The notes beneath the pieces were generated by a model. That model ran no database searches. It saw nothing but the letters and a program-made list of their open reading frames with translations, and was not told where the DNA came from. Of a stretch of DNA of 64,000 bases, positions 20,713-23,420 are shown piece after piece. The DNA comes from Ruminococcus sp. (GTDB taxonomy: Bacteria > Bacillota > Clostridia > Oscillospirales > Ruminococcaceae): contig JAFXXD010000038.1 in the NCBI GenBank assembly GCA_017542475.1, positions 1 to 64,000 on the forward strand, given 5' to 3'. The position numbers and the translations under genes were made by a program. Position 1 is the stretch's first letter, and each line of letters opens with the position of its first letter.

Positions 20713-21982
20713 ATGTCAGCTCCGTTAGCAGATAGGATACGACCGAAAACGCTTGACGATGTCGTCGGGCAGGAGCATATCCTCGCCGAGGGAAAGCCGC
20801 TCCGACGCATAATCGAGAGCGGAAATGTCCCGAATATGATATTCTACGGTCCGTCGGGAGTCGGCAAGACCACTGTTGCACGTATTATTGCTGAAAACTG
20901 CGGTATGTCGCTGTATAAGCTCAACGGAACGAATGCTTCTATCTCCGATATCAAGGACATTGTCGCTGATATAGGTACTTTCGGCAGCGAAAACGGTATT
21001 CTTCTCTACCTCGACGAGATACAGTACCTCAACAAAAAGCAGCAGCAGAGCCTGCTCGAATATATCGAAAACGGAGATATCACGCTCATTGCTTCAACTA
21101 CCGAGAATCCTTACTTTGCCATTTTCAACGCTGTCATCAGCCGAAGCACCGTCTTTGAGTTCAAGACAGTAGCTGCGGAACAGCTCAAGCCCGCTATACG
21201 CCGTGCTTTTTCGATAATCTCCGAGGAAAACGGCGTTACGGTAAATGCGAGCGATGAGCTTATCGACAAGATAGCATTCAGCTGCGGCGGTGATGTACGA
21301 AAAGCGATAAATACTGCCGAGCTCGCTGTTATGTGCGGCGAATCAGCTAACGGAACAGTAACTATCACCGCTGATTCGCTCGATATCCTCGCTCAGCGGA
21401 GCAATATGCGCTACGACCGCGACGGCGACCAGCACTACGATATTCTCTCCGCGTTTCACAAGTCGGTACGCGGCTCGGGAGAATGCTGCTCTTCACTACG
21501 CGGCACGGCTTATTGAGGCGGGAGATATTATCTCGCTGTGCAGGCGTATGCTCTGTATCGCAAGCGAGGACGTGGGTCTCGCCTACCCTATGGCTGTCCC
21601 GATAGTCAAGGCGTGTGTGGATTCCGCGCTTCAGCTGGGTCTGCCTGAGGCAAAGCTGCCTATCGCGGAGGCGATAATCCTTATGGCGACTGCTCCAAAG
21701 TCAAACAGCGCGTGTATGGCTATAGACGCGGCGCTTGCGGACGTGAAGGAGTGCGACGCTCTCGATTTCCCGCGGCATTTGCAGAACAAGCACTTTGACG
21801 GCAAGGGTGCGGCTGTTGTCGGGCAGCACTACCTCTACCCTCACAATTTTCCGAATCATTACGTCGAACAGCAGTATCTTCCCGATGCGCTCAAAAACCG
21901 CATTTACTACGAATTCGGCGACAATAAGCAGGAGCAGGCGGCGCTTCAGTACAGGAAGTCGCTGCTCGAAAAGCTCAAATAG
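20713..21982 (+). pseudogene. rarA: Replication-associated recombination ATPase RarA/MgsA, frameshifted
   Basis: The family product is an AAA+ ATPase acting at stalled forks. Frame one (20713-21516) gives the ATPase part: Walker A GPSGVGKTT at residues 46-54, LYLDEIQYLNKKQQQ, STTENPYF and SCGGDVRKAINTAE. It runs out of phase inside the conserved segment KSVRGS and stops 12 residues later. Homology resumes in another frame from about 21482 (NAALHYAARLIEAGD) to 21982, ending in the tetramerisation domain (HYLYPHNFPNHYVEQQYLP). Inserting two bases near 21479 (TCGGACGAGAAT in place of TCGGGAGAAT) would restore S-D-E-N. It is a real mutation or a sequence error. Confidence 0.85.
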
Positions 21983-21983
21983 C

Positions 21984-22013
21984 AACAAAAAGCCCCGAGA
22001 GACCTTCGGGGCT
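21984..22013 (-). terminator. Terminator of the large RNA
   Basis: AGCCCCGA (22006-22013 on the minus strand) pairs with TCGGGGCT (21991-21998), followed on the minus strand by TTTTT. On the plus strand the T run is poorer, so it mainly serves the minus-strand RNA but may also stop rarA transcription. Confidence 0.75.
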
Positions 22014-22632
22014 GTATTGTTATTCAATTGTCAGTATTAAGCGACTTTCATCACTTAGCTAAATTACCTGTTGGACTCACTCCTTCAGTCTAAATCTTGA
22101 ATGAATACCTCATTTTCATAGTTTCATCATTCCTTCATTGAAGAATCAAGATCTTTAATTGTAATCAAGCAGTGTAAAGTTGTCACTCCATTGGACTATA
22201 CCTCCAAAAGGATTTTGGGACTTTGTAAATTCGTCCGTATAGCAGACCCGAAGGTCAATCACTCAACTTCTCATTGGACTCAACCTTTACAATAAGATTC
22301 TTGACAATATATCTAAAGACTTATCGTCGAAGTTTCAGATAACTCTGTATCCAAATCGAGTAAGCTATGAAGCCGTATTTTTTTCTTCAGCAATGCGTCC
22401 GCGTTGTGCTCGGCAATGATTTGTAGCTTCAAAACTATGGAACAAGTCTCAAGGACCTATATTCCCTCTTATACAGTACCGATCACTCCGCGAGCCCGCC
22501 GGCTTCACGCTGTGATGCTATACTTACTTCCATTGGACTCACACTCCTTCCCGCCATAAATAATCTACATTGAGGAACCCTCAGACCAAGTAGATTCGGC
22601 TCTGTAACCTTTACTGTTACTTCCTTTTCCTT
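21984..22632 (-). ncRNA. Large structured non-coding RNA candidate (about 650 nt)
   Basis: The stretch has no credible ORF on either strand, a good minus-strand promoter at one end and a GC-rich hairpin with TTTTT at the other. Read on the minus strand it contains many clean helices. From 5' to 3': GUAAC/GUUAC (22604-22620); AAUCUAC/GUAGAUU (22562-22596) enclosing UGAGG-GUU-CCUCA; GACC-UUCG-GGUC (22245-22256); CCAAAA-UCC-UUUUGG (22204-22218); AUCUUGA/UCAAGAU and GAAUGA/UCAUUC around 22090-22155; UAAGUGA/UCGCUUA near 22037-22056. The motif AGUCCAA occurs four times (complements at 22071-22077, 22191-22197, 22274-22280, 22533-22539). Length and style resemble giant bacterial RNAs such as ROOL or GOLLD; membership is unproven. 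Confidence 0.7.
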
Positions 22633-22638
22633 GATTAT

Positions 22639-22667
22639 ATATTACCATACAGGTTGTAGAAAGTCAA
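22639..22667 (-). promoter_or_regulatory. Promoter of the large RNA
   Basis: On the minus strand, TTGACT (22662-22667) and TAATAT (22639-22644) are 17 bases apart, predicting a start near 22632. A second possible -10, TATAAT, overlaps at 22634-22639. Confidence 0.65.
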
Positions 22668-23226: not shown

Positions 23227-23420
23227 AGTAACAAAGACTTCTGCCTTGTTCGAGAAATTATAGTTTTTTATAATCCAACACATTATTTAAGGGAATTCAG
23301 CTCCGTGTGCGGACTGCAGACCTCCCGCTTGCGGAAGAAGGGAGCGAGAAGCATTCGGGCGTTTACCCACCTGCTGAGTGCGGGTTTTATTCGCTATATA
23401 AACGGCAAGGCGGATCCGAA
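23227..23420 (+). ncRNA. ssrS: 6S RNA candidate
   Basis: A roughly 190-nt stretch without an ORF has its own promoter and terminator. The ends form a 9-bp closing stem (23240-23248 with 23406-23414). Inside is a large AU-rich bubble (23249-23295 opposite 23379-23405). A distal arm begins with a 6-bp helix (23296-23301 with 23373-23378) and holds further hairpins (CUCCC/GGGAG at 23322-23326 and 23340-23344, CCG-UGUG-CGG). Closing stem, open central bubble and long terminal arm is the plan of 6S RNA, which mimics an open promoter and binds RNA polymerase. From memory, the Bacillus 6S-1 gene also lies near rarA. Other small RNAs are not excluded. Confidence 0.55.

Follow-up and report, generated by a model that had tools for sequence, protein, structure and literature searches.

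A putative 650-nt structured RNA gene in Ruminococcus, probably of a new class, with conserved start and stop codons at three of its four repeats

What is encoded by about 650 nt that lie between a promoter and a terminator and hold no ordinary gene? This question was raised by the minus strand of the stretch of Ruminococcus DNA analysed here (64,000 nt, hereafter the window). The initial annotation had read the region as an independent structured RNA gene, similar in size and character to the giant RNAs ROOL, GOLLD and OLE. Our comparison of homologues supported an independent structured RNA, probably of a new class, and spoke against ROOL, GOLLD and OLE; what the annotation had missed were the start codons and early stops at three of the four copies of AGUCCAA.

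Transcription unit and neighbours

Homologues were compared in an expanded set of 85 sequences, drawn from part of the 94 genus matches described below. The alignment of 81 sequences left out 4 of these 85 as too short, and that of 45 left out 8 of 53 homologues with no recognisable 3' end. The unit in the window was composed as follows:

22667..21984, minus strand: predicted RNA gene including its promoter
22639..22667, minus strand: promoter TTGACT-17-TAATAT, recognised by sequence, with a counterpart in 78 of 85 homologues
21986..22632, minus strand: predicted transcript of about 650 nt, its 5' end estimated from the -10 box
22013..21986, minus strand: intrinsic terminator, a GC hairpin followed by a T run

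Both the promoter and the terminal GC hairpin with TTTTT had been recognised in the initial annotation, and both recurred among homologues, as would be expected of an independent class of structured RNA. TTGAC(A/T), a 17-nt spacer and an accepted -10 box were found in 78 of the 85 sequences, two others having no 5' room; five -10 variants were accepted, namely TAATAT, TATTAT and three looser ones of our own choice. Downstream of the -10 box, 40 of the 85 carried CAAGGAAAAGGA or CAAGGAAAGGGA and the remainder variants of these. The predicted 5' end in the window, CAAGGAAAAGGA (22622..22633, minus strand), is SD-like, often AAGG-rich among homologues, and recalls the SD elements that stabilise RNAs from the 5' end. 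At the other end, a hairpin with a T run was present in 64 of the 77 homologues with enough 3' flank, at a threshold that we set ourselves. The predicted 3' ends lay at 513 to 956 nt (median 641), a few of which may be other hairpins. A terminator-like hairpin can also be read here on the plus strand, for the convergent neighbour.

This convergent gene and the divergent gene upstream, both on the plus strand, are taken to be rarA and a DUF1292 gene, respectively, names that come from the initial annotation and not from a family search. Of 82 homologues whose flank was long enough, 57 had the divergent DUF1292 gene upstream, and rarA was observed at 38 of 73, indicating that the RNA has no single obligatory neighbour. 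In the window, rarA (20713..21982, plus strand) is divided into two ORFs in different frames, though it is a single frame in the relatives L002 and L003; the split reflects either a frameshift or an assembly error. Just past DUF1292, 6S RNA (RF00013) was matched with 62.8 bits at 23235..23418 on the plus strand. An Rfam scan of 18 homologous loci found 6S RNA (10 loci), T-boxes (3 loci) and one tRNA near the element; L115, L120 and L122 each carry a T-box leader on the strand of the RNA, about 100 nt past its 3' part.

Conserved structure and distribution

The minimum free energy of the element was lower than that of each of 20 shuffles (z -3.0), in line with the highly structured RNA first proposed. 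The following domains were distinguished, with pairs numbered according to homologue L001 (window position = 22639 - position):

22553..22600, minus strand: hairpin P1, with compensated pair 46-74
22368..22507, minus strand: P2, a long hairpin and the largest domain, containing P2b
22439..22465, minus strand: P2b, inside the P2 domain
22310..22367, minus strand: P3, with CAG..CUG and GAC..GUC hairpins, very conserved in sequence
22039..22056, minus strand: hairpin P4, AAGUGAU-GAAA-GUCGCUU, with compensated pair 584-599

The initial annotation had proposed covariation among homologues as a check, and compensatory changes were indeed found in P2, P2b, P1 and P4. Across 34 aligned P2 domains, 33 pairs were predicted, of which 16 changed on both sides, and 96.5% of the cells were paired. 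The 63 compensated cells compare with a shuffle mean of 16.8 and were reached in none of 500 shuffles, the fold having been predicted from the same alignment that served for this test. When the fold was slid along the alignment, only 5-10 pairs were changed on both sides. With 81 homologues and a tree-based null that replayed the substitutions, the top two of all column pairs were Watson-Crick pairs in P2b (184-192, not reached in 60 simulations) and in P2 (155-231, E 0.13); the third, 435-440, had an E of 0.45 and was Watson-Crick in 65% only. Tested alone, 6 of the 90 pairs of the consensus fold reached E 0.05 (four in P2/P2b, one in P1 and one in P4), and the other 84 missed it individually. 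The homologues share compensatory base changes, although these were not significant with the first 45 sequences, whose scan over the whole RNA gave no pair at E 0.5 or better. The nearly invariant P3 domain gave no significant covariation. As for the UUCG-capped GACC/GGUC hairpin singled out earlier, it is present in the window but belongs to the linker from repeat 2 to repeat 3, a highly variable part of the homologues, and the conserved helices are others. A long-range pairing between the 5' end and repeat 4, seen in a fold of 34 sequences, was lost with 81, where the P1 hairpin with compensated pairs appeared instead.

Within the genus Ruminococcus, the P2 domain was recognised by its covariance model in 94 of 125 genomes. 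Good genomes (completeness of 90% or more, contamination of 5% or less) matched in 63 of 68 cases, with a single match each except for one genome with two; the 31 genomes of the 125 without a match included the other 5 good ones. In a family sample the model found 5 genomes out of 297 and one genus out of 126, that of the window; both the genus and the family searches used stricter filters, which may overlook remote relatives. By DNA search, 14 of 40 genomes including that of the window were matched, all of one genus. When the DNA pattern of the 5' hairpin was run against a collection of 84,980 species, each represented by one genome, it gave 50 matches, 47 of them titled Ruminococcus and 3 bearing only the name of a higher taxon; with two extra bases it matched 5 genomes of 396 from the family, each belonging to the genus of the window. 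Overall, no homologue outside Ruminococcus was found in the samples searched. In L139 (G522, contig 117), two equal-scoring copies of the RNA lie about 3.8 kb apart in one genome. In L019 (G001, end of contig 31), the contig end carries a partial match to the 3' part of the RNA, additional to a fuller copy in the same genome.

Because the element has homologues, compensatory changes, a promoter and a terminator, it is probably an independent large structured RNA gene of a new class. Neither the window element nor its counterparts in the 18 homologous loci were matched by Rfam 15 (4,227 families) at the gathering score; when E was allowed up to 10, five weak matches to the element appeared, the best (E 0.73) far under its family threshold. 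The element does not replace tmRNA or RNase P RNA, since both were found elsewhere, above cut-offs, in all five genomes searched. No report of this RNA was found in the accessible literature searched, which covered structured RNAs of Ruminococcus, large RNAs in general, minigenes, STAB-SD elements and RNAs that bind ribosomes.

Start codons and stops at the repeats

The four copies of AGUCCAA noticed in the initial annotation are all present, and each forms the end of a longer SD-like motif, AAAGG..GAGUCCR. The first three lead at once into a start codon, followed by a short frame:

22534..22553, minus strand: repeat 1 (R1), GGAAGGAGUGUGAGUCCA, able to pair over the full length of the 16S 3' tail (17 pairs, two 1-nt bulges)
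22483..22533, minus strand: ORF1, 16 codons and UGA (MEVSIASQREAGGLAE), start AUG in 74 of 81 homologues and GUG in the other 7
22275..22294, minus strand: repeat 2 (R2), GUAAAGGUUGAGUCCA
22263..22274, minus strand: ORF2, AUG AGA AGU UGA
22192..22210, minus strand: repeat 3 (R3), GGAGGUAUAGUCCA
22183..22191, minus strand: ORF3, AUG GAG UGA
22071..22088, minus strand: repeat 4 (R4), GAAGGAGUGAGUCCAA, no start codon

The region had been called ORF-free. This held for longer frames: no ORF of at least 30 aa was common to most homologues, the commonest group comprising 30 of 81 and lying on the opposite strand. It did not hold for the three conserved mini-ORFs. AUG or GUG followed R1, R2 and R3 in 81, 79 and 76 of 81 homologues, respectively. 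These counts were taken from alignment columns alone, since the re-anchored repeat sets (n=81; R2 missing in 1, R3 in 6 and R4 in 23) are scored for start letters. By parsimony on one tree, the R1 start changed at least 6 times, always from AUG to GUG and in no other way. R2 was followed by AUG in 78 and GUG in 1, the remainder being one AUA and one ACG; R3 by AUG in 76, the remainder being three gaps and two ACA; and R4 by AUG in only 4 of 81. R4 keeps the motif with no start codon, indicating that the motif has some role besides initiation. The SD-like tetramer ends 10-12 nt ahead of the start in R1 and 7-9 nt ahead in both R2 and R3, and in R3 the spacer varies while tetramer and AUG persist. 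The CC ahead of the start is nearly invariant in R1-R3, in sets anchored by a score that rewards CC.

The stops were likewise conserved. ORF1 had 14-20 codons in 81 of 81 homologues, ORF2 had 2-8 codons in 80 of 80 (3 codons in 61; one of the 81 dropped) and ORF3 had 2-11 codons in 75 of 75 (six dropped). Among distinct sequences, the stop fell at 14-20 codons in 74 of 74 for ORF1 (shuffle maximum 52), within 8 codons in 71 of 71 for ORF2 (maximum 61) and within 11 codons in 63 of 63 for ORF3 (maximum 51). None of 1,000 column shuffles per ORF test reproduced the observed placement; this shuffle ignores relatedness, and the length limits in both nulls were fixed after the data had been seen. 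We relied on it because the tree-based null, which gave 0 of 300 in each test, fails to keep column frequencies intact and is too severe. The two remaining frames did far worse, with 19 and 26 sequences for ORF2, 29 and 33 for ORF3, and 25 and 11 for ORF1. The stops were kept through many changes of identity, at least 16 in ORF2, 15 in ORF3 and 20 in ORF1 (parsimony, one tree). The ORF2 stop alternates among UAA, UAG and UGA, and UGG never occurs at codon 4 in 80 sequences; a stricter regular expression yielded no ORF2 in 11 of 85 sequences. The length of ORF3 changed at least 27 times on the same kind of reconstruction, yet never above 11 codons. In L008, a strain of R. flavefaciens, ORF1 has a 1-nt deletion and the resulting frame is 19 codons long. 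The ORF1 stop lies inside the compensated pair 155-231, so part of its alternation between UAA and UGA follows the helix.

On the pattern of starts and stops, the three SD/start/stop modules look selected as such. Because the peptides vary, it is translation itself, not its product, that appears to be selected, although not every residue is free: the second codon of ORF2 is nearly fixed, being AGA in 71 of 74, while codon 3 varies.

The repeats were also compared with the 3' tail of 16S rRNA. 16S rRNA was sought in the window's genome assembly and in five relatives but was not found in the former or in four of the latter, so the tail was taken from the fifth relative, whose 16S rRNA ends UGGAUCACCUCCUUUCU. 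R1 of the window was predicted to pair with all 17 of these nucleotides, interrupted by two 1-nt bulges, at -22 to -23 kcal/mol, energies that ignore accessibility. At -23.0 kcal/mol it took second place when the sites from both strands of the window were ranked. R4 and R3 ranked 24 and 25, the repeats not being independent of one another, and R2 paired weakly (-10 kcal/mol, rank 640 of 682 sites). Over 81 homologues the median for R1 was -18.3 kcal/mol, which was bettered by 6% of 49 long ORFs of the window, treated as genes, even when the best start of each was allowed.

Explanations and known systems

The explanation that we prefer, and to which we give an even chance, is that the element is the gene for a structured RNA of about 650 nt that is new, restricted to the genus and active through ribosome engagement at its start-stop modules. 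The RNA would be transcribed from promoter to terminator, and ribosomes would be loaded onto, or initiate at, the three mini-ORFs, where R1 could pair with the whole 16S tail. The last codons and the stop of ORF1 lie in the 5' strand of P2, so translation of ORF1 would open the long P2 hairpin, and fold and translation would be mutually exclusive. The window RNA terminates ahead of the convergent gene, for which reason its action would be in trans, that of a regulator which responds to translation or occupies ribosomes; it might also only be shielded by them. Against this explanation stand the distance of 10-12 nt between tetramer and start in R1, which is long for initiation, the weak pairing of R2 with the 16S tail and the motif kept in R4 with no start codon; the stops, moreover, could merely protect the fold.

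The main rival takes this last point further. The motif GAGUCCRAUG would bind a protein or make a tertiary contact, the starts would be incidental, and the stops would avert unfolding by stray translation. We hold this to be a serious possibility, if a minority one. It would explain why R4 retains GUGAGUCC with no start codon and why CC is nearly invariant ahead of the starts, subject to the anchoring score just mentioned. A candidate partner lies within the RNA itself: the internal loop of P1 reads UUGGUCU in the window (22583..22589, minus strand), largely complementary to AGUCCAA, and UUGGWCU in 56 of 81 homologues. However, most of the others have UUGGUUU and the repeats show no matching changes; no covariation supported a pairing of the repeats among the 81 homologues. 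An incidental AUG also fits poorly with R3, which holds AUG and tetramer though the spacer degenerates, and with R1, whose start moves to GUG only.

A bolder form of the preferred reading, which we regard as speculative and unlikely, would make the RNA a translation-side counterpart of 6S RNA. It would mimic mRNA start sites and capture ribosomes by full pairing to the 16S tail and by its three modules, with P2 closed or melted according to the state of translation.

A pure 30S decoy is the next rival after the structural motif, and we find it doubtful to a greater degree. Here the repeats would sequester small subunits by pairing to their free 16S 3' tail, whether or not the mini-ORFs are translated. 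The complete pairing of R1, the ranks of R4 and R3 and the often AAGG-rich 5' end would suit such a decoy. The poor pairing of R2 would not, conserved starts and in-frame stops would be needless, and a single gene copy would need extreme abundance.

Dual-function RNAs have a precedent in RNAIII, and ORF1, with its 16 codons, could likewise encode a conserved small peptide, since in most nearer homologues it ends in QREAGGLAE or close variants. In several diverged homologues, however, the frame is displaced relative to the conserved P2 stem or the peptide has a different end (SVKPAD.., ESQRKAD..). The conserved codons coincide with the 5' strand of P2, and the changes A11T and G12S are compensated on the opposite strand. 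A conserved ORF1 peptide was contradicted on both counts and rejected, and little chance is left to this reading. Finally, a member of ROOL, GOLLD or OLE, or a cis-regulatory leader, recommended by size and complexity alone, has a negligible chance given the lack of an Rfam match, zero matches to the exact 5' hairpin pattern in the viral contigs searched, no tRNA found in the 64-kb window (one of the 18 homologous loci, L064, has a tRNA about 1 kb away) and a window RNA that stops at its own terminator ahead of the convergent gene.

How, then, does the element compare with known systems? In the parts of the source considered, ROOL, GOLLD and OLE all have profiles in Rfam, ROOL and GOLLD are phage- or prophage-encoded and often near tRNAs, and GOLLD was reported to bind ribosomes in pull-downs (PMC12286853). 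The element resembles the three in being a large RNA with an elaborate conserved structure and a function little known or unknown, as far as that source was covered (PMC12286853). It differs in having no covariance-model match, in being chromosomal and genus-wide, in its pattern being absent from viral contigs, in having no tRNA in the window and in its start-stop modules. A further feature by which members of the three would be recognised is assembly of the RNA into homo-oligomers.

Very short frames with a regulatory effect are also on record. The two-codon minigene mg2 of axe-txe acts in cis on translation of the toxin gene, and its effect comes via translation, not product, according to the sections considered (PMC8708949). 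ORF2 and ORF3 share its layout of SD-like site, AUG, one or a few codons and stop. While mg2 acts in cis on a downstream gene, the three modules here lie in a structured RNA with its own terminator.

Strong SD sequences were found to stabilise Bacillus RNAs even with no start codon, as described in the portion of the work covered (PMC3997798). The element has an SD-like sequence near its 5' end in the same way, and bound ribosomes would shield the RNA. In contrast to these STAB-SD sequences, which belong to mRNA leaders, its SD-like motifs recur along an RNA that is not an mRNA and come with start and stop codons. From what was seen of these systems, which were compared through parts of papers, none has the build of the element.

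Little is known of what most large conserved bacterial RNAs do, and this element offers an unusual handle, in that conserved start and stop codons with varying peptides point to ribosomes. 6S RNA is a structured RNA that occupies a central machine. It is a genomic neighbour of the element, with DUF1292 between them, but sequence and structure differ and the partner proposed for the element is the ribosome instead of RNA polymerase. If ribosome engagement is the right reading, a major group of fibre-degrading rumen bacteria would have an RNA that reports on or occupies ribosomes.
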